This document shows, piece after piece, positions 328 to 29,072 of a stretch of DNA of 64,000 nucleotides (its first letter is position 1; every line of letters begins with the position of its first letter). Below the pieces are notes generated by a model that was not told the DNA's origin, did no database searches, and saw only the letters and a program-made list of their open reading frames with translations. The DNA comes from Brachionus manjavacas (lineage: Eukaryota > Rotifera > Eurotatoria > Ploima > Brachionidae), in the NCBI GenBank assembly GCA_019054805.1, contig JAHQIY010000005.1, positions 2,587,501 through 2,651,500 of the forward strand, given 5' to 3'. The translations under genes were made by a program, and so were the position numbers.

Positions 328-3300
328 TTTATCAATTAATTCATTAATAATTCCATTCCATTTTCCATTAACCAAAGTTCCATGTACACCATCCGCCACT
401 GGCTTTATTGTATAATTAAATCCACATATTTTCGATATTTTTACAAGTAAATCAACACAGTAACCTTGATATTTTTCATTTCCTATTAAAGTTTCATTAT
501 TTTCGGGAATTTTCATCATAACATATGGTGCTTCCTATGACAGTCAGTAAATAATATAAAAAATTAAATAAGTATTAATTAATTTTTCAAACTATTTTTG
601 TTGTAACAATTAAATTGCGATTTAATTTGTTCAAAATGTTATCCTTTTCTTTGGCATAACTTCTGACAACACTAATAGGCTTAGAGCTTGCATCTTTCCA
701 AAATCCTATTAGTTCGACTCCGTACTTTGTTCTATCTACTATAGATAGAGTTACATTTTTTCTATATCCGGTATTTTTATCAAATTCGATATTGCCACTT
801 AATCCATTCAATTTCATGCTCTTAAAATGTTCGAGCATTTGTTGTCCATACGACCATTGCTTTTCAGAATCGCACGAAATAGATGGTGATTCTGGTAGAA
901 AGTCTACTAATTTTTTTTGTTCTATTGTTTGCGCTACGAGTTTTATGGCATCATGTATAAAAATAGCAGAACTCTAAACAAATAGAATTTTAATCTATAT
1001 TCATCTACTGTGATGTTCCATTTTTTTTTAAATTAACCAATTTTTTTTTTTTAATCAACCAATTTTTTTTAGGCAAATTAATTTAAATTTTCCAAATTTT
1101 ACGCAAAATTAGAGAAATTTTCAACGTAAATAAGCTTATGAAGGCGGTCTACTAGGAGGTCGCCTATGATAGCACATTGCCCTATACAAGGAAAATTACA
1201 GAAATAGAAGAATTTAGAAGATTTAAGAATCAATAGACATTATTTATAGTACAAAACTAAGAACAAATTTTTTTGTTAAATTAAAATTTTTATGTGGTAA
1301 AAACTTGATGACCGGTCATGAAAGCATCGTTGCGTATATATTTTTTTAAATCAATTTCTATTTAAATAAAAAAGACGTAAAGTTCTTAAATTTTTGTTTT
1401 TACAACAATTTACTTAAAATATTGAAAATTATTCTAATTTTACGTAAATTTTTGAAAAAACCAAAAATCGGAATACCACTGTGTCTAGTAAATAATAATT
1501 ACTGGCATGTATTTAAGCAATTTTTTTTGAGAAACCAAATTTTTTAAGTTAAACTCAGCGAAAACATTTCTAACATTTAGATCATTCGGTTCGAACATTT
1601 GAAAAGCGGTCACATTAGCAGATGGTGTGTAATCAAATGCTGCAAGATCCAAGCTAGTGAACAAAAAATGAAAATAAGTTGTCATTAAACCAGCATCCTC
1701 AGCCTAAAAATTAATTAAGCTTTAAATTCTCTTTTTTTCTTTTAAAACTTACAATTTCAAGAAATTTGTTCAAATATTGGGTTGAAACATCTACTAAAAC
1801 ATGAGATGATCCGCTTAATTTTAGATCGCTAATCAAATCGAACCAGAGCGATGGGTCTGTACTCAATTGCTTAACAATTACTCGAAATTTGTTGCTTAAA
1901 GTATTTTGATTAGAAAATCCACTCGCAACACTTAAATTATTTGGGATTTTGAGAAAATCATCAAGTCTCTTTAAACCTGATGATTCTTGGAATAAAATAG
2001 TTACATATTCCCATTTATAAAGTTCTATTAAATCTATATAAGCTTTAATTAGCTTGTTTGCTGGCGGGTGGATATTTATTTTATCTGATCTTGACCAAAG
2101 GTTGTCATTTTTTTGATTCATACTCGACAAAACTGAGTACTCGTGACTCAATGTGTTCCATTTGACTTCAATATAAGGTATTTTAAGCGAATTGACTATA
2201 GATTCAATTATTTTAAATGCAGGATTTTCTCCAATGGCAATTACTGCTATCCGACCTTCTTCTATGTCATTACATACTAAAATTAAATTAAATTTTTTAG
2301 GGCATTCTAAAAAATGTGATTGAATTTTTTACATGTCTGAGCCAATTTGTAAGCTTTACTCTTGTCTACTTTGTGAGAAGTGAAGTCTAACTGAAATTTT
2401 GACTGACGGTAAATACGATTCACCGAATCAACTGAATAAGATATAAGGTCTTCACTATTTTCCGATAAATCATCATAGAAAACACCTTTAAAATTCACAA
2501 TTATATTAAAAAAGTCAATTGATTAATTAAAAATGTTAATTAGTTTTTTTCTTTCGATTTGTTTTAAATAGATTTAATGAGTAATCAAATGAGAAGGAAT
2601 TAAATGTAAATTTTTTAAGCGAATTTTGCTAAATTTATTTTTTAGATTGTTTAAGTCCATTTTAGAGAAGATTTTAATCCAAGATTTAAATTTTTTATGT
2701 AATATTTTTGAATTTAAAGATTGATAGTGCCTCAAAAAGTAGTAGCGAATCCACAAAAATAATTTTGTTTTTTTCATTTATTTTAAAAGTTTTTTCAAAA
2801 AAAATAAGATCACTTTTCACGTAAAAAAATCAAAAGAAAATATTCAGCTAATGTCATCGCCATTCGTTTGCCAAACTAGAAATTTAAAAAAACGTATCTA
2901 AATTTTTCCTAGATCTTCTAATGGAATTGACAAAGAGTTGGTTAACAAATCTATACCTGAACAAATGAAAAGCCATTTAGCAAGGCAAGAGAAAAAAAAG
3001 TTATACTCACTGTCAAACCCAAAAATGACTCAAAACTTGGGTGTCTTTGTTACAAATGATTTAAAGTAGAACAAACAATGTTCTGTGGGAGCTATAAAAG
3101 CTAACATTTAAAATATATGGAATCGCATTAAGAACCTGAACTTTATACTCATTTGAAGTATGCAATAGACACCTGGAGTTCCAAATTTAAGAATAGATAA
3201 GTTCAAAGAAAAGAGACAAAGCTGATAAATTATATTAGAAAAAACCTTATGAAGATAAATTTTAATATCTAATATCATCAAAATCACATAATTCTTAAAA

Positions 3301-6994: not shown

Positions 6995-7267
6995 TTATGA
7001 ATGATATATGCACCTAAGGTTTTTATCGTAGCCTAATTGTTTCATTTTAATTTGATCAACTTTTGTTAAATGTCGTTTGTATTGCTCGATTGGTGGCAAA
7101 TATGAATAGTCTGAATTATCTTCAAAAAAGTTTTCATATCGTTTGGGTTCTGTTATTTTTAATTCATTTTTTAAATCAAAGTTTTGTACATTTTGAGTTG
7201 TTTTTTTGGTTTTATGATGACACATTGCAAATTTAAATTCTTCAAGCATTTTATCTTTTAAACTTCT
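6995..7267 (-). other. possible alternative terminal exon 9b of receptor copy B
   Basis: A polypyrimidine tract and AAG acceptor precede a phase-0 open frame of 90 residues ([19 protein letters not shown] start). This resembles the membrane-proximal tail of kainate receptors (a MxEFKFA-like block). AATAAA lies on the minus strand at 6905-6910, suiting a transcript end. It could be an alternative last exon to 9a; no transcript evidence is available here. Confidence 0.55.
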
Positions 7268-10200
7268 CTTAAAAAAAAAAATTAGAAATTGTTAAACTTC
7301 AGTAATTCAAAAAAATATGTTAAAAAAAGTATTTCATTGTTAGTTAATGTTAGTCAAAAAGCGTTAGTTTATAGAAATCAAATCTCGTGATTACTTAAGA
7401 ATTTTGAACATTATTCAAATGCTGAGCATATCGGGTTACTGGACTAGAATCACTATCAATAAAAAATGGACTGGAAAGATAGTTATCAGACATGTTCTTT
7501 GATGATTTATGATTGAATTTTCGCGACTTATTTGCTTTTTTTACCAAAAAATTTTCAGTTTCCTCTTCATCAAATTGTGTATTAGAAATGTTTGATTTTA
7601 TATTTTTCACTTTATAAAAAGGATTTTCAAATTCTGCCTTAAAAAAATTTTCCATAGTTCGTCTAAAGCCATTATTACACTGCTTAGAAAAACTCAACTG
7701 TGAAACAATTGTAAAATTTAGGTAATAAAAATTAAAATTTTTTCAAATTTTACTTGATCATTTGATGTTTGTCGAGCTTTCCAGAGAAATTCCAAAATGG
7801 CCACCAAAAAACTAAGACATAAGCCAAGAGACAATACCAGAAATACACCGCCCACGTTTGCCAAACTTAATTCACTGGCTGAATCTTTTTTTTTGTCTTC
7901 CGAATTATCACATTTTTGATTCGGATCTTTTCCTTCCTTTTTCCACCACTTTATATACAGCTCCTGCAAGTCACCTTTTTCTTGCAGCTGAAGAATAGCA
8001 TTAGATATTTGATCTCTCCAAGGAGATCCAGGTGGAGTGCCAATTCCATATCCTTTCGTATCAATTAGTCCCCCTACTTGCATCAATTCGCAGTCACGTT
8101 GTCTTAAATAGTCATTAGTAGTCGATTCTACCAGATAGGCATAGCCGCCTTTTTTTACTCGCGCTATTCCTTCTTCCGGAGATGAGACAAATACGTCCGG
8201 ATTACTCTTCATGAAATTCCACATTCTTTCATAAGTTTGAATTTTTGATTCCTTTAGAAAAAAAAGAAAAATTATTTTAATTTTTTTTTTCATTGATTTA
8301 GACACCAATACTACAAAAGACATGCATTTAAGGAAGTTGAAGAAGTAATTAAGTGCTATGGGGGTTTAAATGGCCAAAAATACTCCAAAAAATTGTTGTG
8401 TAGAGCCTCCATTCAAACAACCATAGCGAATCTCAGTTTGTTTAGCCAAATCATCACTATTTTGAATCGGATAAATCAAACGGCGACTAGTAAGAAAAGC
8501 AGCCAGATTGGCAGTATAAGAAGATACCATTATAAGAGCAAAAAACCACCAAGCAGTCGTCAAAATTCGTGTACTACATGATTTTGTATGAATATCATTT
8601 CCTTTAATAATGCATGCAAGATTAAAATAAAACTAAGGCAATTGAAAACAAGGTAAATAGGAAAAATCAGGCTTAAAAGTCCTGATTACTTTAAAAAAAT
8701 TTTCCGTAGACCCACTACGAACCGAGCCATATTTGATCTCAGTTTGTTTACTCAAATCTTCAGCATTTTCAATTGGATTTTGCATACGCTGAACGGTAAG
8801 AAATGCAGCTAAATTAGCTGTGTATGATGAAATTAGTATAAGAGTGAAAAACGCCCACACACAGCTAATTAAGCGTACAGAGGGAGCTCGTGGGTTTATA
8901 TCAGTTCCTAGGAATTTTTTTTTTAATTTTTCAGAAATTTTATTTTTAAATTACCTTGTTGCATCAACGATCCTATTGTAAACCACAGACTATTCAAAAC
9001 TGTAAATTGATTAACTACTACACCCGAATCTTGGTTACAAGGATGTGGATTTTGCCATTCATATGGCGAAAAACGGGCCAGAACAAAAAGCATAAAGCTT
9101 ACAACTAAATGTTTGTAAATTTAATAAAAGCAATTTTTAATTTTCAAAAGTGTTAATAAAATTACTCAAATAAGCTGCGAGCATGTAAAGCCATATTTCA
9201 ATTGAAAGTGGGGACAAAAAGGAAAATAAATTTGGAGTGTTTTTTTTTGGTCTTTTGTATAAGATACTGATTCCCAAGTTTAAAAATGGCTTTGTAAAAT
9301 CAATCGCTTGCTCACGCTGATAAGTGATCGTCAAACCAGCTACTGCTAGATCAGCCTTTTTTTCAACTATTTCATTCACCATTCCATTCCATTTTCCATT
9401 AACCAACGCCCCATGAACATTGTCTTCAACTAGCCTTATCGTATAGTTGAAACCACAGATTGATGCTATTTTTTGCAATAAATCAATGCAATAGCCAATA
9501 TACTGATCGTTGCCGGTTAATGTCTCATTATTCTCTGGCTCCCTTCTAATAACATATGGTGCTTCCTAAGTAAAAAATTTAGAAGAAAAAATTTTTTTTA
9601 AAAATTCATACTAGCTTAGTGGTAATAATTAAATTTCTATTCAACTTGTCCATTACTTGATCCTTCTCTTTGGCATAGCTTCTTACGATTTCGATGGGGC
9701 TATCTGAATCAAAGTCCCTCCAAAAGCCCACTAAATCAACACCAGTTCTAGTCTTGTCCACAATAGCCAATGTTATATTTTTCCTATAGCCCGTATTTTC
9801 ATCAAATTCAACAGACCCACTTAAGCCAGTAAATTTCATTTTTCTTAAATGGCTCATAAACTCAGCTCCATATGTCCATGGAATTTCTGTGTCACACGAT
9901 GCTCTTGGATATTCGTCTATCACATCAACTAGATATTTTGTTTCTATAGTCTGCGCCAACAACTGAATAGCATCATACACCAACACAGCTTCACTCTTAA
10001 AACAAATATTTTAAAATTTAATTTTAAAGTTGTGCCTATTTTACCGGCATGTATTTGAACATTGGTTTATGGGAAACCATATTTTTAAGATTAAATTCAG
10101 CGAACAAACTACGAATTTGCAGATCGTTAGGTTCAAATATTTGCAGTGCAGTCACATTTGCGGAAGGAGTATATTCCAAATAGGCTAGATCCAAAGTGGT

Positions 10201-11146
10201 AAACATAAAGTGAAAATACGATGTTAAGAGACCGACTTCTTCGGACAATTCCAAAAATTTATTCAAATATCGCTTTTGGATATCAACAACAATGTGAGAT
10301 GAGCCACTTAACTTAATATCCTTAATTAGATATATCCACTCGCTGGTGTCTTTGCTCAATTGTCTGACTTGGACACGAAATTTTGGATTTATGTTATGAG
10401 ACTTTGCAGCACTATTCCTGTAATATTTTCTTAAGTTCAGCTTAACTAAGTCTTCTATTCGAGCAAGTCCTGTTGTTTCCTGGAAAAGTACTGTTATATG
10501 ATCCCATTTGTAAAAGTCGATTAAGTCTATAATTGCTTTAATTATTTTATTAGCCGGCGGATGGATGTTTATTAAATTTTCAACTTTTTTCGGCTCATCA
10601 TCCGCTTCGTTCAGCAAATTTTCAATGTTCTTGTATTCTTCATTTAGTTTATCCCATTTTATGGCAATGTACGGAATTTTTAGGGTGCTCGCTATCAAGT
10701 GAACAAGCGAAAATACAGGACTTTCGCCAATTGCCAAAACTGCAATCCGACCATCTTCTAACTCATCACAAACTTAAAAATAATATCAATAGTTATTTTA
10801 CTTTAATAGAAATGGGTTTTACGAATTTTTGTTATTTTGAAGCTCTCTGATTTTAGAGTTTTAGTGATCGAAAATTCAAATTGAAATGCCGAGTTTCTGA
10901 ATTGACGATTTATCGTATCAATCGAATATGATACTAAATCTTCTGCACTTTCATGATTTTCATCGTAAAAAACAGCTTTGAAATAAAAAAAATTATTTTG
11001 TTAAATAATATTTTTAGTAATTAAATTGTGTTTTCTTTTAATCAGTGTAAATAAATACCAATTTTGTAGAACTTTTGATCCCGTTTGGCATAACATTGAC
11101 TGGATGAAAAGAAGTAAAGAATCAAAAATTGAAAATAATACTTCAT
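6995..11146 (-). CDS. kainate-type ionotropic glutamate receptor, copy B (complete, alternatively spliced)
   Basis: Glutamate-gated cation channel subunit. Exons on minus: 11059-11146, 10823-10975, 10045-10772, 9612-9995, 9166-9565, 8955-9104, then 8690-8907 or 8384-8601, then 7754-8251, then 7395-7697 or 6995-7267. With 8690-8907 and 7395-7697 it gives 973 residues, about the usual kainate receptor length. In order: signal peptide ([14 protein letters not shown]), amino-terminal domain, S1 (EAPYV, GYCIDLL, ITYQRE with the ligand-binding Arg, IDFTKPF), M1, pore loop M2 with genomic CAA (Gln) at the Q/R site (GSLMQQG), M3 (SYTANLAAF), S2 (LVESTTN with the ligand-binding Glu, [12 protein letters not shown]) and M4 ([18 protein letters not shown]). 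In S1 the usual Pro of the APLxIT block is Gly (LAVAGLTIT). It lies head to tail with copy A. The family assignment is firm; kainate over AMPA type is judged from S1 and the pore. Confidence 0.9.
7395..7697 (-). other. terminal exon 9a of receptor copy B (cytoplasmic tail)
   Basis: Acceptor TTTCACAG, phase 0, in frame after the M4 exon; 100 residues then TAA. It encodes a basic then acidic cytoplasmic tail ([21 protein letters not shown]) ending [12 protein letters not shown]. It has its own stop, so exon 9b cannot follow it in the same protein. Confidence 0.7.
8384..8601 (-). other. exon 7b of receptor copy B (M3 exon, downstream version)
   Basis: 218 nt, exactly the length of 7a, 88 nt downstream of it, with the same entry phase (1) and exit phase (0). 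Acceptor TTAAAG, donor GTATTT. It encodes a second M3 ([19 protein letters not shown]) and S2 start (GGSTQQFF). By my count 39 of 72 residues match 7a, identical through [12 protein letters not shown]. It is fully open with no decay. Using both 7a and 7b would shift the frame, so only one can be used per transcript. Confidence 0.85.
8690..8907 (-). other. exon 7a of receptor copy B (M3 exon, upstream version)
   Basis: 218 nt, acceptor CCTAG, donor GTAATC; it enters in phase 1 and leaves in phase 0. It encodes the end of the pore loop region, all of M3 with [11 protein letters not shown], the M3-S2 linker and the start of S2 (SGSTENFFK). It joins exon 6 (QQ-G) and exon 8 ([11 protein letters not shown]) without breaking frame. 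Confidence 0.9.
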
Positions 11147-16022: not shown

Positions 16023-16450
16023 CAAGCAGACAGTAAACGGGCCAAAATTTTCCTAAACCGTGAACGTGACTGTATTAACCTTCCAATTTTGGCGGACGGA
16101 CCTTAGCCCGTTTAGCAGACGTTTAATTTTAAACCGGCGGACAAAGTTCGAAATTTGGTGGGCGGTATTGTAATTTAATAAAAATACTTTTCTTAAATAA
16201 TAAATTGAAAATAAATTTTTAAATATTTCTAAAAAACGGACTTGATAATTATTTTTTATTATTATCAAGTCAAATTTTTAATTTGAATTTGCCGTTCCAG
16301 GTAGTTCTTTAGCGGCCTGGTTAAAGTCAAAGTCACTAGAATAAAGGTTTTTAGAAAAAATTTAATAATTTATTTTATTTAAATTAAAACGGTTACTAAA
16401 CGAGTACAATGCCCACCCGCCAAAGTTGGCACGGTTTCATAGCCCGCCCG
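16023..16450. other. GC-richer patch of unknown origin left of LINE V
   Basis: The sequence is visibly richer in G and C than its surroundings, with repeated GCCCGTTTA-like words (near 16108 and 16424) and AAACGGGCCAAA at 16033. The same AAACGGGCCAAA word returns at 19465-19485 on the other side of LINE V. It may be a separate small element into which V inserted, or the end of a composite insertion. I see no protein here. Confidence 0.4.
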
Positions 16451-18810
16451 TTTATGCAGCTCCCGACATCATTTTTATCTCTCAAACTTGGTACCACAAT
16501 GGGTCGATCATTCATATTGAGGGATATGAATGTTTCAGGAGAGATAGAAGAGATGGAAATGGTGGAGGGGTCTGTATCTACGGCAAAACTTCGAGAGCAC
16601 TAGTTTTTAGAGATTTGGACTTCGAACAATTTGGATCAGCAGGTATTGAACAGGTTTGGTGTGCGGTGGATGTGGGTATAGAGTCGATTCTCTTGGGTTG
16701 TATATACCGACCGGAATTTCTGAGAAACAATAAAGGTGTTGTATGTGATAAGGGGATACATAAGAGGAGGGATGAAAATATAAATGAGTCAATAAAAAAG
16801 GCGGGTAACCTAATAAGTAATAAAAAATTCCAGGGGGTGATAATTGCAGGGGATTTTAATTATAATGAAGTTACATGGGACCAGGCATTAGTACCAACAA
16901 TTACAAAAAAATCAGAATCGGCGGATGAATTTATCAGAACGCTTAATGAAAGCTTCATGACACAGAATATATATTTCAAAACTTTCCAGAAGAAACATCA
17001 TGAGAGGACATATATGACGAATACATTGGATCTGGTTATTACGGAAGGAAGGGAAAGGGTTTATGAATTGGAACAGGGTAAAGTGCTGGGGGATGCAGAA
17101 AGTGGTCATGTCAGTATTAGTTGGTGTTATGGTTTGGCTGCAGGAAATATTAAGGGTGAAAAAAATAAAACGTTTACTAGTTATAAATATAATTATAGGA
17201 GGGGGGATTACATAGGCATGAATGAGTATTTAAAAGGGAAGGATTGGGAAACTTTGTTTTCAGGTGCGGGTGTCCAGGAGCAATATGAGATATTTCTACG
17301 GGAATACGAGGAGGATTGTGAGAAATACCTTAGGAAATGTAGAGATGTGGATGGTAGGAAAGAAAGACCGCCTTGGATGAGTCGGGATTTAAAGGGACTG
17401 ATACGGAAAAAAGCTAATCTTTGGAACAGGTATGCGATAAGTGGAAAGAAGGGAAGTCTTGATGAATACAGAGTGTGTACAAAAAATGTCAGAAAAAGTG
17501 TCAAGGAGGCGATTAAGGCGTATGAATTGGTAATAATAAGTAAAGCTAAGGATAATCCAAAGCTATTGTATGCGTACATAAACAACAGGCAGCAAACTAA
17601 GGAGTCTATTAGGTCGATTAAATCAGAAAATGGTGAGAATGTGACGGATAGGAAGGAAATCGCATCGATCCTGAACCGGCAATTTAAGTCAGTTTTCATT
17701 GTTGATGACGATAAAGAGATGCCAGAATTTAATCAGAGGACACATATGGTATTTGAAGGGGATGTTGAAGAAATGTTTGGATTGGATGGTATAGTGAAGA
17801 GACTGGAGAGACTAGATGGTGCTAAGGCAATGGGAAGGGACAAGGTATCACAGATGGTACTTAAAAGTTGTGCTAAGGAATGGGCTAAGGCATTAGAAAT
17901 TATATTTAAGAAGTCATATAGTGAGGGTGAGGTTCCAGAAGAATGGGGGATGGCAAATATTACACCGTTATTTAAGAAGGGGAGCAAACTGGAGGCAGTG
18001 AATTACAGGCCGGTGTCTTTAACGTCAGTGTGCTGCAAAGTGATGGAGGGCATAGTTAGGGATGTATTGATGGGATATTTTTATCAAAATAAATTAATTT
18101 CGAGGCAACAACATGGGTTTGTCAGAAGGAGGGCGTGTGTGACCAACCTATTGGATTGTCAAAATATGGTTTCAAGGAATATACTAGGTGGAAATACGGT
18201 TGATGTGTTATACACAGATTTTTCAAAAGCGTTCGACAAGGTATCACATAAAAAGCTGATATATAAACTGAAGGCGTATGGTGTGAGAGGTAGTATGCTG
18301 AGTTGGGTGGAGGCTTTCTTAAAAGGAAGGAAGCAATGTGTTGTTCTGGGTGATGTTGAATCAAATTGGGAGGAGGTGACTAGTTCTGTGCCACAAGGGT
18401 CAGTATTGGGTCCGTTTTTATTTGTAGTATACATTAACGATTTGCCAGAATGTTTAGAAAATGAATGTGAGATGTATGCGGATGACAATAAGGTGATAGC
18501 AGTAAATAAATTAGGCTTAAATAACGGACTTCAGTTGGACATTAATAATACTGTGGAATGGTGTAAGACATGGTCAATGAGTTTGAACGGCCCAAAATGT
18601 AAAATCATGCACTTTGGAAGAAATAATCCTAGGGACAAGTATTGGATTGAGTGGGATGGTGATAGATTTGAACTGGAAACAACGGAAGTGGAGAAGGATT
18701 TGGGAATTATGGTCACGGCCGATGGAAAGTGTTCGGCACAGGTGGAGGCAGCGGTTAATAAGGCGAGTTGGGTGTTAGGTAGAATTAGAAAGACGTTTAG
18801 ATATTTTTAA
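16426..18810 (+). CDS. endonuclease / reverse transcriptase ORF of LINE V
   Basis: 794 codons. The endonuclease domain covers about residues 12-230 (PDIIFISQTW, GCIYRPE, IIAGDFNYNEVTW), but its first motif and N-terminus are missing. Reverse transcriptase covers about residues 500-770: YRPVSLTSVCCKVME, QHGFVRRRACVTNLLD, YTDFSKAFDKVSHKKL, SVPQGSVLGPFLFVVYINDL, and the catalytic YADD near residue 684. The real ORF of the family would start upstream; the first ATG here lies in flanking sequence. The frame stops at 18810 just before the C-terminal block. The product would copy the element's RNA into DNA at a nicked target site. Confidence 0.8.
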   Translation: MARFHSPPVYAAPDIIFISQTWYHNGSIIHIEGYECFRRDRRDGNGGGVCIYGKTSRALVFRDLDFEQFGSAGIEQVWCAVDVGIESILLGCIYRPEFLRNNKGVVCDKGIHKRRDENINESIKKAGNLISNKKFQGVIIAGDFNYNEVTWDQALVPTITKKSESADEFIRTLNESFMTQNIYFKTFQKKHHERTYMTNTLDLVITEGRERVYELEQGKVLGDAESGHVSISWCYGLAAGNIKGEKNKTFTSYKYNYRRGDYIGMNEYLKGKDWETLFSGAGVQEQYEIFLREYEEDCEKYLRKCRDVDGRKERPPWMSRDLKGLIRKKANLWNRYAISGKKGSLDEYRVCTKNVRKSVKEAIKAYELVIISKAKDNPKLLYAYINNRQQTKESIRSIKSENGENVTDRKEIASILNRQFKSVFIVDDDKEMPEFNQRTHMVFEGDVEEMFGLDGIVKRLERLDGAKAMGRDKVSQMVLKSCAKEWAKALEIIFKKSYSEGEVPEEWGMANITPLFKKGSKLEAVNYRPVSLTSVCCKVMEGIVRDVLMGYFYQNKLISRQQHGFVRRRACVTNLLDCQNMVSRNILGGNTVDVLYTDFSKAFDKVSHKKLIYKLKAYGVRGSMLSWVEAFLKGRKQCVVLGDVESNWEEVTSSVPQGSVLGPFLFVVYINDLPECLENECEMYADDNKVIAVNKLGLNNGLQLDINNTVEWCKTWSMSLNGPKCKIMHFGRNNPRDKYWIEWDGDRFELETTEVEKDLGIMVTADGKCSAQVEAAVNKASWVLGRIRKTFRYF

Positions 18811-19437
18811 GAGATAACATAATCGTTTAGATAACATAAATCTTTTTAAGAGGTTATATCCTACTTTTGTGAGGCCACATTTAGAGTTTGCATCATCGGT
18901 GTGGAACACGTTGAATAAAAGGGAGATAAGGAAGATAGAGGGAGTTCAGAGGAGAGCTACAGGAATGGTGGTGGAGCTAAAAGGACTGGAATATGGGGAA
19001 AGGTTAAAGAGTTTGGGGTACACTGACCTGGAATTAAGGAGAAAAAGGGGTGACTTAATACAATTATATAAAGTATCCAGGGGGTTAGAGGAGGTGGACC
19101 TGGGGATGACTATAGGAAGGGAGAATGTAGGTAGATCACATACACACCAAATTGCTAAGGAGATCTGTGGGAATTGCAATATAAGAGGGAAATTCTTGCC
19201 TAACAGGACTGCAACCACCTGGAATTTACTTCCATCCTATGTAGTAAATGCGGTTACAGTAAACGGTTTCAAGTCGAGACTTGATGCACACATGGCGTCG
19301 GGAAGTCTTAGGAGATCGGTATATCAGGTTTAGTAATTGGCATAGCAGATAAGGATTTAGCTGATATAATGTAGCCTTATAAACTACGTTCACACAGGTT
19401 CGCCTGTGTCACAGCTTTCAATACTACTACTACTACT
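16451..19437 (+). mobile_element. near-complete non-LTR retrotransposon (CR1/Jockey-like LINE, 'V')
   Basis: The best-preserved transposon of the window. It has an apurinic-like endonuclease, then reverse transcriptase, then the C-terminal block, and ends near 19437 in an ACT repeat (actactactactactatt). The endonuclease start is missing, so it is 5'-truncated. Its G-rich coding composition differs from the AT-rich host genes. One break separates the main ORF from the C-terminal block near 18810. Confidence 0.85.
18811..19333 (+). pseudogene. C-terminal block of the LINE V polymerase, separated by a frame break
   Basis: Open from 18869 (RPHLEFASSVWNTL, KIEGVQRRATGMV, RRKRGDLIQLYKVSRG, TATTWNLLPSYVVNAV) to a stop at 19333. 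In relatives this continues directly from the reverse transcriptase. Here a short local duplication around 18792-18835, where the words CGTTTAGATA and TTTTTAAGAG each occur twice, brings in stops and shifts the frame, so this copy is probably inactive. Confidence 0.75.
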
Positions 19438-20546: not shown

Positions 20547-23500
20547 TTAAGTATAGATAATAAAAGCTTGAGTAAATTCAGCCAAATCTATTTTTCCATC
20601 TTTGTTAGTGTCCATGGCTTCAATCATTGATTTGATAGCTTCGTCACTAATAGCTTCATTTTGATCTAAAAATATTATTTTACAAGCATTGGCAAACTCC
20701 TGTAAATTAATTGTTCCTGAATGATTATCATCAATTAGGTTAAATAAAGCCACTAGAGTGTCTTTATATCGAGCCAATGCATCATTGATATCATTATGCT
20801 CGGTGGTAAATGTATACAATATATCACAATTATCAAAACTACTTTCATATTTGACCATATTTTTCTTTGGATTGTAGTCAACTAGTTTATCCCTATATCT
20901 AAGCCATGGTATCTTTTCGACTCCCATTGCTTTGGTCAATGCCATCGACCAGTCACTCAGACTCAAATATCCGGTGTTTTTAGGATCTAGTTTTTTAAAA
21001 TGTTCTCTGATATTGTTTCTATTTGCATAGACTAATCTTTTGAGGCCACGAATTGCTTTGGTTTCAAATAATTCAACTCTATGCTTGTCCATTTCTCCGG
21101 ATCCAGGAGCTATGAACTGTTTAATTTCTAATTTTTGCTTAGGTCGTATAATGCAAATTGAGCCTTTATTAATTCCACCACAATAATTCGAGGCGGAAAA
21201 AATTGTGATACATTTATTGTTGTGATGAAATTCATAGCCCTCTACTTTGCACTCATGAGAGCGGATTAGTAGCGATAAGCCGTATTTTTCCAAAATGGCC
21301 TCTGTTACATCTGGACCAAATCTAAAAATAAAAAATTTAAATTTTGATCGATTTAATAAATAATTCTCTACATAATTTAAAATTAATATGAAGCAATTAA
21401 TCTCAGCTAGTCTAACTACATTAAAAATTTTAAAAAGCTTGATTTAGAAATATTTCAAGTTATTATTTAATTGATGAATAGTGAAAATTAGTATCAAAAA
21501 TTTAAAAATAAAAATAAAAAAAATTTAAATAAGAAATTAAAAACTGCATCTAAAAGATATTTATGAATAAAATTTTGAAAGCTTAGATTAAAGATATATA
21601 GATAATCTTTTGTGATGAGATAAGTATTATGATGTTTTAGTTTTTCTTTTTATTAAAAAGAAGATAAAGAAGACATTTAAGACTTAAGGATTTAAATTCA
21701 ATTCAATTTAATCTGCTAACTACTTGGTACTTTTTTTAACATCACAATGAAAAAAAATATAGATTTTTTAGAAAGTATAAGGTATACAAAATTAATTGGA
21801 GTTCATTTTGTATTATATTTTATATTTCATAAGCAAAATATAAAGAAAATTTAAAGACAATTTAAAAAAAATAATTTTCATATTCATTTTTATTTATTAA
21901 ATTTTTTTTAATATTAAGGAGACAAAGAGAGTTATGGGTCAAGTGTTTTTAAATTGGTCAGAAGTTCTAAGCAGAGACCTTCAAAGCTCTGTTGTTGCCA
22001 CTTGGTCTTATATAAAATTTATTAACGACATGCTCGATATGCTTAGGTGCAAAAATTTTGCAGATGAAACAAAATTAATCTCTACCATCAAGAATCCTTT
22101 TGACTTAGCTAGTCTCCAACAGGACTTAGTAAACTTGATCTATTGGTGAAATTTGGAGTTACCAATCAACGTCAAATCAGAAAAACGACAGAAAACAGAA
22201 AATCGTTCAAGTATTGGACAGAATAAATTTTCGAGTTATTCTATATTCTATCTTTTGATAACTCATCTTGTATATGTGGCAATTTGATGCCCAAATGCTA
22301 GAAAAGACATTCAAATTTTATTAAGAGTTCAGATGAAAGACAAAAAATTGGTACAAAACACGCTTGGACTGTATCAAAATTGGATTAGATATCGTGGACA
22401 TATTGATGTCGAAAGTGTAAACGTGTAACAAGAACTTTTTCAAAAAGGGTCTAACATAAATCTAGGAAATTAAATTTTGAAAGGTCAATTTAAGCCTAAA
22501 GCTTTTGATTACTAATTATTACTGTTAGTATTTTTTTGTTCTTTAAAATATTTATAAAACATTTATTGAATTCAGCAGAAGTTTCAAGAAAAAAAGAAAT
22601 AAAATTAAAAATTAATTTCATATTTTTTTCAAAATTTTTAACTTATTTTTTGAAGCTTTCCGGAAGCTTTTTTCCGAAAAATACCCCATGACATAAAGAT
22701 TTGTTCAATGCTTTAATCAATATTACAAAAGATCAAATGTATCTTCCAGACATATGCATCGACAATGAATTCGAGAATATATAAAGAATGCATCGATACA
22801 TAAAGTGCCAGAAATTAACTTGTCACATCATACAATCTGATATTATCTGATATCAAATGATATTAGCTATCAACTGATATCAGTTTAGATATTTTTTTTT
22901 ATCCCTTCCTCATTTAGCTGTTATCAGCTAATTATAGTAAAAAATTGTAACAAAAAACAATTTTAAGAATGACAATTAATTTAACTTAAGTAAAAAGTTT
23001 AATTTAATTAAAAAAAAAATTCAATTAAATTAAAATCGACTTTTCTCCAGAGTTTTTCAGAAGTCAAAAATTCAAAGTAGAGTCATTTGACTTTGAATTT
23101 TATTTAAATGATATTAAACGTAAATTTGAAGTTGAGGATAATTTTACTCTAATATAGAAAGTCAAAAGTGAAAGTCAGACTTTTTCTTTTATTTTGACCG
23201 ACAAATAATATGCAAATAATGCATAAATTGATAGCTAATAATTATTAAATATTTTATTGAATAATCTTGAGTTTCTTAATCTATTTTGACTTTAGACTCT
23301 GACTTTTGACCAACTCTGGCCTTAAAATAAATTTTTTCAAATACAGTGAGTATTTTAAAAACAACACGATATGTTGCAGCGTCAATCATGATACAGTTTT
23401 TGTCGCGACCATTGGGGCTGTAAAATTTTTAAAATGCCTACTGTAGATTTAATTTCTATTTTGAACTTATGATGATCTTCAATTTTTAGAACTGATTAAT

Positions 23501-26500
23501 TATCACTCTTTTTATATATAACTCCTTAAATTTCAAAATAAAAATTTCAAAGTCAAGTCAAATGGCTTTTTATTTGATTATTTCACAAATTTTCTTTTGA
23601 ATTTTTTTTATATAGGTTTCCCATTTATTTGGTTTTAGAAACTGAATAGATTCACAAATGGCATAATTTATTTCCTGATTATTTTTTTGAATATTTTTCC
23701 TAAAAAATTGCTTTAAATTATGCCTTGCTTTTAATCTAGAAAATTGGCCGGTGTCCTGTTCTATTTTTTTATATATACTTTATAATATATTATTTTTATA
23801 AAATTTTAAATGATCTTTTGAGAGTAAACTTTTTTACTTAGTAACACTAGTGCAATTTTCTTTCTTTTTTTAAATTCAACTTGAATTTAATGCAATTTTT
23901 TGTAATTTTGCCTATGGGGCTTTAAACTAATAAATAATAGTAATAATAATAATATATCAAATGATGTAAGTAATTAATAAATCAAACCGGCTTCAATTTT
24001 AATTTGGCTGGGTAATAATAGCGGTGTAAATGATCAACCGGGATGCAGTAACTTCTGTGTCAGATCGGAGTCGTTGCTCAAAAAGGTCCTTGAAAAGGAG
24101 ATGAGTGCCTTCTCATTATTCACTAGGAAAGAAAAGGTACAATCAAATTAATAAATTAGTATTACGAGTTGTGTAGGAAAGTTACTGGAACGAATAGTCT
24201 TTTCAAGATTATACAATTTTTTAGAATACAATTCATTTCTAATCTATCTGGAATTAGAAAACACTGGCGAACATCAGATAATCTTTTCTTTTTAACTCAA
24301 AAATTGTCGAGTAATTTAATAGAAAAAAAAGAGTTGTTGCCTGTTTTTTGATTTTTCCAAAGCCTTTGATAGGATTTGGCATGACGGTTTACTTTATAAA
24401 TTGATTAAAATGAATCCACCTCATTACTTGACTAACTGGAATAAAATAACTTTCTTAACTTTCTTGACTTTCCTAACTGGAATAAAATAACTTTCTTAAC
24501 TTTCTTGACTTTCCTAACTGGAATTTAAAAACTTTCTTTAATTAACTTTCTTGAATTTTACCACTTGAGAGAAGAAATCCAAATAACCGCAGGTGTCCCT
24601 TAGGACTCAGTAGAAAGTCCTCTTTTATTTAGTTTATATATTAATGATATTTCCAAAAGAAACAAAACAAATAATGAACTCTCTGCTTTTCCCAGATGAT
24701 CTAGTTACATTCTTCATTTACAACCAAAAGGGGAACCTAAATTCTAAAGATGGATTATTTAATCAACAACTTTGAGAATTTGAATGTAAGAGTTAATTAT
24801 TCAATATTATTTTTTTTCTTGATTTATTTTTTTACTTGTCAATTAGAACTAGTCAAATTTAACTTAGTCATTTTTTCTTATATCTAATTAAAACAAATTA
24901 TATAAAAATTTGTCAATTTAATCTATATTATTCTTTAACTTGTCATAATTAGCTAGCCACATTAAAGTCTTTTAAATTGAACTTGTCAAAGTAAGCGGAC
25001 ACCGTTGGGACAGGATTGAGTCATTGGTTGTCAGACTGGTGGAGGAATACAAAGCAGGTTTCGAATCAAATAATATTGAATGTTGGCAGATCGGAGAGAA
25101 GACGCGTGGCAAGGCGAGCTCACGTTCGATAACGATAAGATATATAAAATAGAAAGACTGAAATATTTGGGCGTCGAACTGAACGAGGACTCTAGTGACA
25201 CGCTACACTTAGACAAGAGAAAACGAGCAGCAAGATTAGCACTAATAAAACTCAAAAACAATAAGCTGATAACCAAAAAAACTAGCGCGTACTTAAAGGG
25301 ATATCTGTATAAAAGCTTCATTATGCCAGTGCTATTCTATGGAATGGAAACGATAAATCTTAGTAAAAAAACATGAATAGTCTAAAGAACTGTGAGAACA
25401 GCATCATTCGTACTATATACGGCATTCCAAAACGTTGTAGAATGAGTAACCTAAGACTCATTAACAACATTAATGATCCCTATAATAGACTTAAAATATT
25501 ACATGTCAACTTCTTTGAGAGGCTTTGGCTCAACAATTACACCAAGGAAATACTTAAAGAACTTTTTTTAGACTAAAAGGTTAGTGTGTGCATCAAAAAC
25601 CTACTGGAAACGCTGGATGAGATTGAATGTGATCGAAACATTGACCTCCTAGGCAAATGTAAATACTACAAATACAAGATGAATATATAGTTCGAGACAA
25701 GTAAAAGAAATAACCAAGATCTGGGACAGCTCAAAACACTATTCAAGAAACACAATGGGACAAGTGAGAAGATATACCAACTCTTAAGATATGACAGATG
25801 TATGAATGACAATTCACTGTAATTAAATAATTTACAAAAACTAAATAATTTAGGAATACAACGTCACCTTTTTTAACGGGACATTGAGAAAGTGGTCGGA
25901 AAACGGCCTCGGCACTAGAATTAATAATAATAATAATATTAAATACCCAACTCCATTGTGTAATTGCTTCTTTACTATTTCCTCTTTTTTTCTTGAACTA
26001 TCAGATATTTAAAAATGTGTCACATTAAAATACAACCTTAAAATTTCAATTTTTGGCTTTTTAACTTTCTTTACATTTTATTTTACCTTCTTTACTTTAT
26101 TTTGATTTCTTTTTATTCTGAAGGAGCTCTAGCTCGGTACAGAAAAAAAAATAATTAATTATCTTATATCCAAAATTTACCGAAGTCTGTTGATGTGTCT
26201 TAAAACATATCATAGTGTTTTAATAAAGGGAAAAAAGGTAAATAATGACTAAATTTTTTTCGATTATTTAACTTCAAATTTAAGGATTAAGATACTAGAA
26301 ATTTATTTAAAATAATATCCTTAGTTTCTTAAATTTACGTTTTAAAATTAATTTCTAATAATTTTATTCTAATATTAGCTTATATCAATTGATAGCTAAT
26401 ATTATTTGATATCGGATAATATCAGATGATATGATGTGACAAGTTAATTTCCGGAACTGTATGTTCTTGACTAAATGCATGTAATTTTATTTATTTTTTG

Positions 26501-29072
26501 TAAAATTAAAATTCATTGTTTGAAAAATTAGCTTATACCGAAAAAAAATATTTTGGATCTATTAATCGATATTTGAAAATGTTTTTAATGTTTAATTACT
26601 TAAAAAATTCTAAAGTTTTCATGAATTTTTATTTTATTGATATTTTTCATGATTTTTCTGATATTCAATGGCTATTTTTTATTTAGTTTTCTTGTAGCAC
26701 TTTATAGTATATAATTTTAAAAATGTAATGATAATGATAATTTTAACACTAGAAGCACCGAAATTTTTTTATTCTTCATTTTAAACATCGGCGATGTCAT
26801 TTTGTCATATCTTCACTGCTATCTATTAAATTGCGAGTTATTTTATTTAACTTTTTTTTAAAATAGATTTAAAATTTAAATTTTTATTATTTTAGAACTT
26901 TTTTAAAGATTTTTGCTTTCAAATCGTTTTGAACTCATTCTAAGTTACCTTAAAATAAATGATGAAAAATTCAAAAATCTTGAAAAAAAAAATTCAATTT
27001 TAAAATGAAACATACAAAAGAAGCTCTACAGCGTTGTCCAATTATGAATCATTGTTAATGAAAGGGTCTAAAAAAGACAAGAAAGCTTTCTTTTTAATAA
27101 TTCAGGAAGATTTTTTAAAAAACACATAACATTTCTTTAAATTTTTTATATTTGTCTAAATGACATCTACTGATGCTTTTCAGCATATTGGTCAATTTAT
27201 CTTGAAGTAAAATATCTGAAAAAAACATAGGATTTAATTTTGGTAAATAACCACTACAAAACTTTATTTGCAAATTTTCAGTCCTAAAAACGTTAATTTA
27301 CTATATATTTTGATGAATCACAACTCGAAATATGTCAAAATGACATCGCCGGTGCTTCTAGTGTTAAGGTTGATGGAATTCATACCAAGTTTTTCTTAAA
27401 TTGTCTTAATTTGGCATTTTTTTATTATCAAAGTTTTGAAATTTTTTTTGTTAATATTGAAATGAACATTTTTCAATTTTTTATCAGATGTGATTAATTA
27501 AAATTTTGAAATTTTTTTTACTCTAGGTGAAAGCTTAATGAAATTACTAACAAAATAAGACTCGTTTATTCGATCCTGGTTATGTGAAATTCGATAAAAA
27601 AAAACAATAATATACGAATACACATCTGATTTTTTTTAAATTAAAATATTTGTTCAACAAATACAATGCAATAAACATCGGTGCATAATTTTTAATAGGT
27701 AAAATTCAGGTTTTTGGATGAAATAAATTCATTCAATTTTTAATTAAAAATTTTACCAAAGAAAACTAACATCAAATTTTTTCATCGTATAAGATAACTT
27801 AAATTTACAAAAAATCATAAAGAAAAAATGAATACTCACTGCTTAGCAATATGTCTTTGTCTATTAAAAGTACAGCCAAAACTATTCTAAAAAGACAATT
27901 TATTTAAAAATAAAAATAATGATAGAATGTTACTTGTGGATCAGACCAAAGAAGATCTTGCATTTGCTGTTTTTCTTTTCTTTCTTTTTCAGTTGAACCT
28001 GAATAAGTTCCATCAAGACTAGGATATTTGTTTCGCTCCAAAGACATGATCATATTTAAATCAGTATCTTTTGATATACCACCATGAACTAAACAAAAAT
28101 TTGAAATAAAAAATTATAATAAATAAAAAAATACAATTTTGTTTTCTAATAATTACCAACTAAAATTCTATTAATTTGTTGCCTGTTACTTTTTTGATAG
28201 ACCATAGACATAAGTGGGAGTGAAACAAATACTTGAGCACATTTTTTCATCAGTAATTTTGAATATAAACAGTATTTTGTCATTATTTCTTCCTTAAAAC
28301 CGAATCGAACCGAGCACCCATAATCTTCATGATTGCCCCTATTGAGGAAAAAACTATTGTACTTTCCACCATAAAGGACTAAACCATAAAGTAAAGTGAA
28401 TAAGACTTCGCATTGCTGTGCTCCTCTGTCAACAAAATCGCCATTAAAAAGATAGATATTTTTCCTCGAAGGAAGACCATTGAGATCAAAAATGGTAAAT
28501 AAATCAATAAATTGTCCATGTAAATCTCCAACAACATTAACTTTAAACTCATTTTCGTAGTTTTCTGGTTCGGGATCTTCAATACAATTTATTTCATTAA
28601 TATTTGGTAGATTTTTCAAATAATCAATGGATTTATTGATAATCATGAGTGCATACCGGGTATGCAAAATTTGCTCATTTCGAAACGAGTTAACTAATTT
28701 TTCGAAATCAGATTCACAAAACTCCTCGTTCAAATGAATGCCTGTATAGTCTGCTTCAATTTTTATGTCCACCTCGCTTATTTTCATAAAGTCGTCCTGA
28801 ATCGAGCTAGAAATGTATCGATTCATTTCATCATTGTCAGTGTGTTTAATCAATTTAATCCATCTCAGAAAGAATTTGTTAAGATTTAAGTGATCTTGTT
28901 CCTCGGAATACTCAATCAATTGCTGTATGTTAAATGCTGCTTTTTCCCTAGCCTTGAGCCGGTCTTTGAATCCGCGAAAATTTTTTTGTATTGTCTCAGC
29001 TGCCTTATCGGCGAATGATAATGGCGAGTTGGCTCCACTACTGCGGCCTGAAGACATTTTTTCCAATATCAT
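20547..29072 (-). CDS. PPEF: serine/threonine protein phosphatase with EF-hands (PPEF / rdgC homologue)
   Basis: Calcium-regulated PPP-family phosphatase; the fly member rdgC dephosphorylates rhodopsin. Exons on minus: 28157-29072, 27934-28088, 27840-27886 and 20547-21321, with GT..AG ends and consistent phase, giving 630 residues. In order: an IQ calmodulin-binding motif (residues about 26-40, AAETIQKNFRG), catalytic motifs GDLHG (182-186), GDFVDRG (211-217) and RGNHED (245-250), VHGG, LLWSDP, RSHE and SASNYCGG, then three C-terminal EF-hand-like loops: DPKNTGYLSLSD (weak), DDNHSGTINLQE and DTNKDGKIDLAE. The 47-nt third exon reads NRQRHIAKQFG where relatives have N..RGGGxYFG: the Arg is kept but the glycines are replaced. 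The third intron is about 6.5 kb and full of transposon remains. Translation could also start at 29057 (MSSGRSS). The family is certain; orthology is inferred. Confidence 0.88.
21920..22440 (+). mobile_element. LINE relic in PPEF intron 3
   Basis: The plus strand reads FINDMLDMLRCKNFADETKL, a decayed IND..L.....FADD block of a LINE reverse transcriptase, then LASLQQDLVNLIYW. Further on, past stops, it gives ARKDIQILLRVQMKDKKLVQ. No intact frame remains. Confidence 0.5.
22800..22895 (+). repeat. left arm of a long inverted repeat (Tc1/mariner-like terminus?)
   Basis: It contains GAAATTAACTTGTCACATCA followed by TGATAT-rich sequence. Its reverse complement, with few changes, is at 26365-26458. 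The outer edges (about TA-CATAAAGTGCC here and TA-CAGTTCC in the other arm) look like Tc1/mariner termini next to a TA. Confidence 0.6.
23040..23335. repeat. small inverted-repeat element in PPEF intron 3
   Basis: The left part (TCCAGAGTTTTTCAGAAGTC) and the reverse complement of the right part (GCCAGAGTTGGTCAAAAGTC) resemble each other. A related TTTGACTTT..GACTCT stretch occurs near 53680-53730. It is probably a decayed MITE. The match is imperfect and the ends uncertain. Confidence 0.35.
24160..24780 (+). mobile_element. LINE reverse-transcriptase relic in PPEF intron 3
   Basis: The plus strand over several frames gives a GKLLERIVFSRL-type start, RKHWRTSDNLFFLTQKL, then CFFDFSKAFDRIWHDGLLYK, and later LFSLYINDIS. 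This is the DFSKAFD to YIND region of a Jockey-like LINE, with frameshifts. A 41-bp tandem repeat interrupts it at 24433-24555. Confidence 0.65.
24433..24555. repeat. 41-bp tandem repeat, about three copies
   Basis: A unit beginning TAACTGGAATAAAATAACTT starts at 24433 and again at 24474 (identical), then a diverged copy starts at 24515. Within the unit ACTTTCTT recurs. It expanded inside the LINE relic. Confidence 0.85.
25006..26152 (+). mobile_element. LINE 3' end ('X', copy 2), split by another LINE
   Basis: 25006-25079 and 25940-26152 match the copy at 15480-15815: GTTGGGACAGGAttGAGTCATT, GGTGGAGGAATACAAAG, then CCCAACTCCATTGTGTAATT, then the UTR end GAAGGAGCTCTAGCTCGGTA plus an A-rich tail. 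The two halves join exactly where copy 1 is continuous, with the foreign stretch 25080-25939 between them. Confidence 0.8.
25080..25939 (+). mobile_element. 3' part of a different LINE ('Y') inserted into X copy 2
   Basis: An open stretch from 25080 to about 25576 (one frame change near 25375) has LKYLGVELNED, LKGYLYKSFIMPVLFYGME and ENSIIRTIYGIPKRCRMSNL, the C-terminal region of a non-LTR polymerase of a clade different from V and X. It then decays and ends in an AAT repeat (aataataataataatatt). The flanks aatattgaa and aatattaaa look like a target-site duplication. Confidence 0.7.
26365..26458 (-). repeat. right arm of a long inverted repeat (Tc1/mariner-like terminus?)
   Basis: Reverse complement of the arm at 22800-22895; read on minus from 26458 it gives CAGTTCCGGAAATTAACTTG next to TA. 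Either the two arms bound one 3.66 kb element that later received LINE insertions, or they are two separate short copies in opposite orientation. Confidence 0.6.
26747..27363. mobile_element. piggyBac-like MITE (617 bp)
   Basis: Perfect 14-bp terminal inverted repeats, CACTAGAAGCACCG at 26747-26760 and CGGTGCTTCTAGTG at 27350-27363, are flanked on both sides by TTAA (26743-26746 and 27364-27367), the target duplication used by piggyBac transposases. A second inner inverted word, GCGATGTCATTTTG, is present at both ends, about 30 nt further in on the left. There is no transposase ORF, so it would be non-autonomous. It lies in PPEF intron 3. Confidence 0.85.

Follow-up and report, generated by a model that had tools for sequence, protein, structure and literature searches.

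Two probably alternative versions of an exon encoding the M3 gate module in a kainate-type glutamate receptor gene of the rotifer Brachionus manjavacas

A kainate-type ionotropic glutamate receptor gene of the rotifer Brachionus manjavacas carries two adjacent and homologous versions of its seventh exon (7a and 7b), which are probably mutually exclusive exons whose exclusivity is enforced by the reading frame. An earlier note on this DNA had proposed that the pair gives one gene two channels. Of that interpretation, an exon pair arranged and phased as mutually exclusive exons would be was recovered. In addition, 7a is conserved and 7b shows constraint, and the use of 7b in transcripts is predicted from these features. 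The gene lies in a window of 64,000 nucleotides (the whole stretch of DNA that was analysed; contig JAHQIY010000005.1, positions 2,587,501 to 2,651,500 of the forward strand, assembly GCA_019054805.1). The genome scanned comprises 114 Mb in 61 contigs.

Gene B and its two versions of exon 7

Two adjacent kainate-like receptor genes, A and B, are found on the minus strand; the existence of a receptor copy A agrees with the earlier note. Gene B, as rebuilt from the sequence, spans 11146-6995 and encodes a kainate-type receptor from a transcript of nine coding exons: 1 to 6, 7a or 7b, 8, and 9a or 9b (Table 1). The kainate-type assignment is borne out by matches to solved structures (7a form), where GluK2 scores best (500.9 bits) compared to 424.5 bits for the best GluA2. 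An arginine of S1 and a G-S/A-T triplet and a glutamate of S2 have roles in glutamate binding in this receptor family. In gene B these residues all align with those of GluK2 (TITYQRE, GST and ESTT), and the SYTANLAAF gate motif is present and identical in 7a and 7b. The 9a tail weakly resembles that of P0233 (45% over 20 aa, E 0.003 with nine sequences compared), and the 9b tail is 63% identical over 67 aa to the tail of the Brachionus calyciflorus protein P0002. The choice of 7a or 7b and of 9a or 9b would permit four gene-B proteins.

Among the matches listed when the protein was first searched, the two of highest identity (83% and 81%) are the B. calyciflorus proteins P0002 and P0004, which are apparently encoded on one contig of 36,692 bases. 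Outside the amino-terminal domain, P0002 compared with gene B and P0004 compared with gene A are 89-99% identical per segment. A scan of viral contigs for DNA of the relatives found nothing. Elsewhere in the window, two adjoining open frames on the plus strand (16369-19333) resemble a non-LTR retrotransposon with endonuclease and reverse transcriptase when judged by eye, and open frames on the minus strand (20547-29072) resemble, also by eye, an EF-hand phosphatase of the rdgC/PPEF-like type.

Table 1. Features of gene B and of paralogue A (window positions unless L009 is given; window position = L009 position minus 5501)
Feature	Position	Strand	Description
Gene B exon 1	11059..11146	-	start codon, signal region
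Gene B exon 2	10823..10975	-	amino-terminal domain
Gene B exon 3	10045..10772	-	amino-terminal domain
Gene B exon 4	9612..9995	-	amino-terminal domain
Gene B exon 5	9166..9565	-	S1, start of M1
Gene B exon 6	8955..9104	-	rest of M1, pore loop M2; ends ...MQQ-G
Exon 7a	8690..8907	-	218 nt, phase 1 in / 0 out; post-pore segment, M3, start of S2; ...GSTENFFK
7a/7b intron	8602..8689	-	88 nt
Exon 7b	8384..8601	-	218 nt, phase 1 in / 0 out; alternative version; ...GSTQQFFG
Gene B exon 8	7754..8251	-	rest of S2, M4; holds A/B gene-conversion tract
Exon 9a	7395..7697	-	first alternative last exon; 100 aa tail, own stop
Exon 9b	6995..7267	-	second alternative last exon; 90 aa tail, own stop
Paralogue A, amino-terminal domain to part of S1	328..2485 (exons 2485-2333, 2276-1753, 1703-1503, 973-593, 534-328)	-	first exon not located
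Paralogue A, remainder	L009 4906-3377, just beyond window start	-	single 7b-like M3

The coordinates and lengths that had been given for 7a and 7b proved exact, as did their phases: both exons are entered after MQQ-G and left ahead of the first residues of exon 8. The span claimed for the pair, from the post-pore segment through M3 to the first part of S2, was likewise recovered and includes the M3-S2 linker. Both exons are bounded by GT-AG sites (acceptor ...TTCCTAG and donor GTAATC for 7a; acceptor ...TTAAAG and donor GTATTT for 7b). The two are identical at 138 of 218 nt and at 40 of 73 residues when the split first Gly is counted, which equals the 39 of 72 reported earlier. A tblastn search of the 64-kb window with 7a finds 7b at E 1.3e-26; thus, the likeness of the exons reflects homology and not chance. 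Splicing of 6-7a-8-9a or 6-7b-8-9a gives an open protein of 973 aa. The predicted frame break was also confirmed, with a stop at codon 721 when both exons are included and at codon 642 when neither is. The pair is in these respects typical of mutually exclusive exons, being adjacent, homologous, similar in length and equal in phase, with either exon alone keeping the frame.

By alignment, exon 7 corresponds to GluK2 positions 623-695. A 12-residue gate segment (GluK2-equivalent 649-660) and the G-S-T triplet (688-690) are unchanged between 7a and 7b, as had been claimed. The 33 residue differences are distributed over 624-639 (12), 641-648 (4), 661-675 (9) and 681-695 (8). The earlier description of a swap of the whole gate helix holds for the genomic unit but not for the gate motif, which is identical in the two exons and is surrounded by the changes. 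In the open GluK2 structure, L655 is the gating hinge and tension of the M3-S2 linker kinks M3, as described in part of the source (PMC11186766). L655 lies within exon 7 and is the same in 7a and 7b, and the M3-S2 linker differs at 661, 662, 664, 665 and 666. Column counts were taken from 234 distinct gapless windows around SYTANLAAF or AYTANLAAF, drawn from 350 listed matches. Position 662 is E in 191 of these windows, Q in 7a, R in 7b and K in copy A. At position 641, 210 of the 234 windows have W, as does 7b, and 7a has A; this second M3 Trp is also replaced by Ala in the B. calyciflorus orthologue and in two other 7a-type proteins. Position 685, in the ligand pocket, is occupied by V in both 7a and GluK2 and by L in both 7b and copy A, and is presumably equivalent to L650 of GluA2 (GluA2 numbering), by its spacing to the S-T pair. 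In the GluA2 L650T mutant, AMPA becomes a partial agonist, according to a passage of PMC3607592. From the assignments at the linker and at 641, 662 and 685, it is likely that the 7a and 7b forms differ in efficacy and gating.

Origin of the exon types and relation to gene A

The earlier note had asked whether copy A contains the same exon pair, and the search of copy A gave a negative answer. The M3 of gene A lies within a single 1283-nt exon (L009 4659-3377), and neither the window nor L009 yielded another convincing M3-like stretch when searched by tblastn with the two exons. Gene A is intronless from within M1 to its stop; the 1283-nt exon covers exons 6, 7, 8 and 9 of gene B and carries a 7b-like M3 together with a 9b-like tail. 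Paralogue A also has two introns that B lacks, one in the amino-terminal domain and one in S1. The intronless 3' half of gene A may derive from a reverse-transcribed 6-7b-8-9b message, and plain intron loss fits equally with its structure.

Exon 7b resembles the A-type sequences more than its neighbour, with identities of 53/73 to Bcal_A, 50/73 to W_A and 40/73 to 7a. In a tree of exon 7 (35 rows, 73 columns; 31 of the rows are database proteins chosen by hand from the 350 listed matches), 7b groups with the A-type rows, including the bdelloid ones, at 92/95 (not starred, the bootstrap being not settled), on a branch of 0.49. Exon 7a groups with two other 7a-type proteins, presumably of another monogonont, at 99/99. 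Forcing 7b into a clade with the Brachionus 7a sequences costs 28 lnL units (p-AU 0.048), compared to 15.9 with all 7a types (p-AU 0.19) and 3.3 with the Brachionus A sequences (p-AU 0.37). A recent self-duplication of 7a is thus disfavoured as the source of 7b, which is nearer to paralogue A. Silent divergence is pS 0.547 between 7a and 7b, 0.745 between 7b and A, and 0.877 between 7a and A. Where residues are the same, codons are shared at 22 of 39 positions for 7a and 7b (16.6 expected, P 0.046) and at 25 of 47 for 7b and A (19.4 expected, P 0.055), and 7a and 7b have one identical run of 15 nt. The lower pS, the shared codons, the identical run and the p-AU of 0.19 for the wider clade make some local exchange between 7a and 7b possible.

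Genes A and B do exchange sequence, as a gene-conversion tract is apparent in exon 8 (window about 8077-7900, compared to L009 about 4117-3940). In 30-codon windows at codons 765, 780 and 795, pS between A and B is 0.17, 0 and 0.10; it is 0.46-1.08 in the other windows. A B-like start of exon 8 followed by an A-type tail is seen by eye in P0326. Given this exchange, gene B may have acquired 7b through ectopic conversion or unequal exchange with a gene A that still contained introns there, in which case the pair would be younger than the genes and its members would still be alternative exons. The closeness of 7b to the Brachionus A sequences and the low cost of tying it to them favour such a capture, but gene A is today intronless around M3, and the length of the 7b branch together with the bdelloid A-like rows in the clade allows an older origin. 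Capture is accordingly considered a real possibility, albeit not the favoured one.

The alternative is that the exon types predate the A/B gene pair, as is suggested by the conservation of exon 7 relative to its flanks. Exon 7 ranks first in conservation in four pairs of compared sequences (0.73-0.82, compared to 0.59-0.71 for S1-M2 and exon 8), yet it is the least conserved of the core between the A and B genes, with 0.62 compared to 0.75 and 0.82 for W_A and W_B, and 0.59 compared to 0.80 and 0.89 for Bcal_A and Bcal_B. This pattern suggests exon types older than the genes. Between W_A and MonoX_A, exon 7 has no lead (0.67 compared to 0.66 and 0.65), so that faster change of the A-type exon is a possible alternative explanation. 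In the flank trees, from which W_B7b was omitted because its flanks are the same as those of 7a, Brachionus A and B are sisters at 100/100. The four Brachionus A/B sequences also form one group (100/99) in a tree of the amino-terminal domain, which was built without MonoX_A, MonoX_B1, MonoX_B2, Mono2_A and W_C2 (this part being absent or not rebuilt) and from which the program dropped u234 and Bugula. The bdelloid genes were considered as simple orthologues of A and rejected: their M3 is A-like, but they fall far outside Brachionus A/B in the amino-terminal-domain tree. Tests of discordance between exon 7 and its flanks are suggestive only (p-AU 0.089 for exon 7 and 0.078 and 0.077 for the flanks).

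Two histories fit these observations: either the exon pair came before the genes and one type was retained in A, or genes A and B came first and their flanks have been homogenised. In the first, which is favoured with less confidence than mutually exclusive splicing, an ancestor would have had both exons; B would have retained the two, and A would have retained only 7b-type sequence, with loss of its 3' introns. Extended to the two tails, this history would describe a gene that switches its M3 module by splicing through a choice older than the gene family, with gene A as a frozen 7b-type isoform (7b-like M3, 9b-like tail and no 3' introns) that arose perhaps via a spliced-RNA intermediate; the proposal in this full form is tentative and rather doubtful. 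An AMPA-like gene on contig C1 has in common with gene B the intron after FFR, and the downstream boundary of exon 7 is thus probably old; its upstream intron is placed elsewhere. On contig C1 of G000, two AMPA-like receptor genes are arranged in tandem at a distance of about 5 kb (8872397-8878158).

Constraint on exon 7b and the probable manner of exclusion

Exon 7a is conserved in another species: it is identical at 72 of 73 residues to the B. calyciflorus gene-B protein P0002, and the B. calyciflorus gene-B model uses 7a. No gene-B protein with 7b is found among the matches listed in three protein searches (best 120 of 5316, of 3802 and of 388). In P0270, a 7a-type exon is followed directly by exon 8; provided that its contig is genomic, that relative lacks the 7a/7b pair. 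Constraint on 7b was gauged from the placement of its differences relative to conserved columns, as counted in 237 windows with slightly different filters, the motif and the windows first met in P0002, P0004 and P0232 being omitted. Outside the motif, 7b has 20 differences from Bcal_A and 23 from W_A, and in each case only one falls in the 20 of 64 columns that are at least 95% conserved (P 0.0015 and 0.0003, respectively). At cut-offs of 90% and 85%, two and three of the 7b differences fall in conserved columns, compared with Bcal_A as with W_A (P 0.003 or less). In the same test, other pairs show similar behaviour, with counts of 0 of 13 (7a and MonoX_B1) and 1 of 24 (W_A and MonoX_A). Against copy A, 7b has a pN of 0.214 and a pS of 0.745, with silent sites near saturation. 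In a simple neutral simulation starting from A, 6% of 4000 runs retained an open frame with at least 50 matches when the rate was 0.25 hits per site, and no run did so from 0.5 upwards. The avoidance of conserved columns argues that 7b is an exon that evolved under constraint, part of which may belong to the A branch.

The splice sites of the pair are on the weak side. The scores are 2.21 (donor) and -0.87 (acceptor) for 7b and 3.24 and 0.77 for 7a; the other sites, scored by leave-one-out, range from 0.4 to 7.0 (13 donors) and from -5.4 to 11.2 (14 acceptors), such that 7a and 7b are low but inside the range. The longest T-run in the 20 nt before the acceptor AG is at most 2 for 7a and 7b and 3-11 at the 14 other acceptors. 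Weak sites were rejected as proof of regulation since the weakness is clear only with self-inclusive scores, and the leave-one-out values provide no more than a hint.

Whether 7b is instead a relic, a decaying copy that is rarely or never spliced in and is heading for loss, is weighed by the same data. Its site scores are the lowest of the pair, its residues H627, T628, C631 and R662 occur in none of the 234 windows (P628 is kept in 226), and it is missing from the gene-B proteins of relatives among the matches listed; its length is, by contrast, exactly 218 nt, its frame is open and both its splice sites are intact, and the excess of silent over replacement divergence from A, the avoidance of conserved columns and the drift simulation all argue against decay. 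A relic is thus unlikely, and a recent loss of 7b use would be compatible with the evidence of constraint. A second possibility is that 7b serves as a regulated poison exon, its joint inclusion with 7a breaking the frame and lowering receptor output. The stop at codon 721 would have this effect, and the human flip and flop exons, which have the same outcome, are joined in up to 12% of junctions and the joined forms are expected to be degraded (PMC8257547, in part). A poison exon, however, needs no conserved coding sequence, while 7b keeps the conserved columns of the receptor, which makes such a role very improbable. Misassembly of allelic or paralogous copies can yield a tandem exon pair, but an assembly or gene-model artefact is hardly credible here, since the exons differ at 80 of 218 nt and the next best genomic match of 7b (8 places scored) is gene A at 69%, which sets 7b apart from a misplaced copy of either 7a or A.

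For the favoured reading, mutually exclusive exons, the spliceosome would join exon 6 to 7a or to 7b and then the chosen exon to exon 8. Transcripts with both exons or neither would be out of frame, reach an early stop and presumably be degraded, so that no receptor is made from them. Other means of exclusion were considered. At 88 nt, the intron separating 7a from 7b exceeds in length each of the six introns that border neither exon (46-83 nt) and thus should be spliceable, with no sign of steric exclusion. Compared with the minor-spliceosome consensus, the GT-AG sites of 7a and 7b display no minor-spliceosome signature. RNA structure was rejected as the selector, as folding of the three introns that adjoin 7a and 7b is unremarkable (z -0.80, 0.50 and 0.63). 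A 7-bp stem (AATCAGG/CCTGATT; window 8650-8710, minus strand) begins two bases past the 7a donor boundary, within the intron, and might hide this donor; the hairpin has a z of -1.99 in a stretch chosen by eye and of -0.80 over the whole intron. With no steric, minor-spliceosome or folding sign, the reading frame remains as the probable enforcer. Exons of a length not divisible by three are included in 60% of human clusters, according to part of PMC5740500. The criteria given in that paper for mutually exclusive exons are junction reads of each exon that span the other, and no reads linking the two except where such joining would break the frame.

The amino-terminal domain, S1, pore loop, gate motif of M3, M4 and the greater part of S2 would be common to the two predicted receptors. 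Their differences would lie in the stretch ahead of M3, in the inner half of this helix, in the M3-S2 linker through which the gate is pulled, and at the margin of the ligand pocket. The exon switch would thereby most likely tune agonist efficacy, gating and desensitization rather than permeation.

Significance and comparison with known systems

Splice variants at the S2-M4 edge and the termini are already known to modulate ionotropic glutamate receptors. The module exchanged in gene B would contain the gate helix, the M3-S2 linker and one position of the ligand pocket, and the choice of exon is seemingly divided between the gene copies. Natural channel pairs that are 33 positions apart around an unchanged gate motif would provide a ready-made test of gating residues.

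The closest known parallel is the flip/flop pair of the AMPA receptors (GRIA1-4), which, similarly to 7a and 7b, consists of adjacent exons of equal length, not divisible by three, of which both or neither break the frame (PMC8257547, in part). Flip and flop are 115 nt exons of an AMPA subunit that encode 38 aa, differ at 8-10 residues and are located at the end of S2 before M4. By contrast, 7a and 7b are 218 nt exons of a rotifer kainate-like receptor that encode 73 residues, differ at 33 and cover M3 and the start of S2; the pair is thus distinct from flip/flop in length, position and subunit class. The GluK1a-c and GluK2a-b variants are, like those of gene B, products of kainate-type splicing, and 9a and 9b resemble their C-terminal variants. 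Unlike 7a and 7b, the kainate variants are length isoforms of the N- or C-terminus, and none that exchanges M3 is named in the portion of a 2025 review available (PMC12580572). In the parts consulted of the open PMC literature, with subscription journals mostly outside it, no mutually exclusive exon pair other than flip/flop is named for ionotropic glutamate receptors. An exon swap of the M3 gate module is likely new for this receptor family.

Membrane segments are exchanged by splicing in sodium channels and in CACNA1C, which belong to unrelated channel families. Mutually exclusive exons, comparable in this to 7a and 7b, are named for these channels in PMC5740500 (in part). Gene models of two bivalves (Mya P0094 and Mercenaria P0031) and a louse (Polyplax P0235), found among the 350 listed matches, similarly to 7a and 7b contain two adjacent M3 units in a kainate-like gene. 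A trout model (P0121) repeats a shorter piece and was set aside, as it looks like a model artefact. The Mya unit differs from 7a and 7b in that it has 66 residues, would keep the frame and seems to begin after the pore segment, not at QQ-G, and it thus looks independent of the rotifer pair. The tandem M3 units of the bivalves and the louse are possibly independent alternative M3 exons; if so, splicing of the gate module would have been invented more than once in animals.
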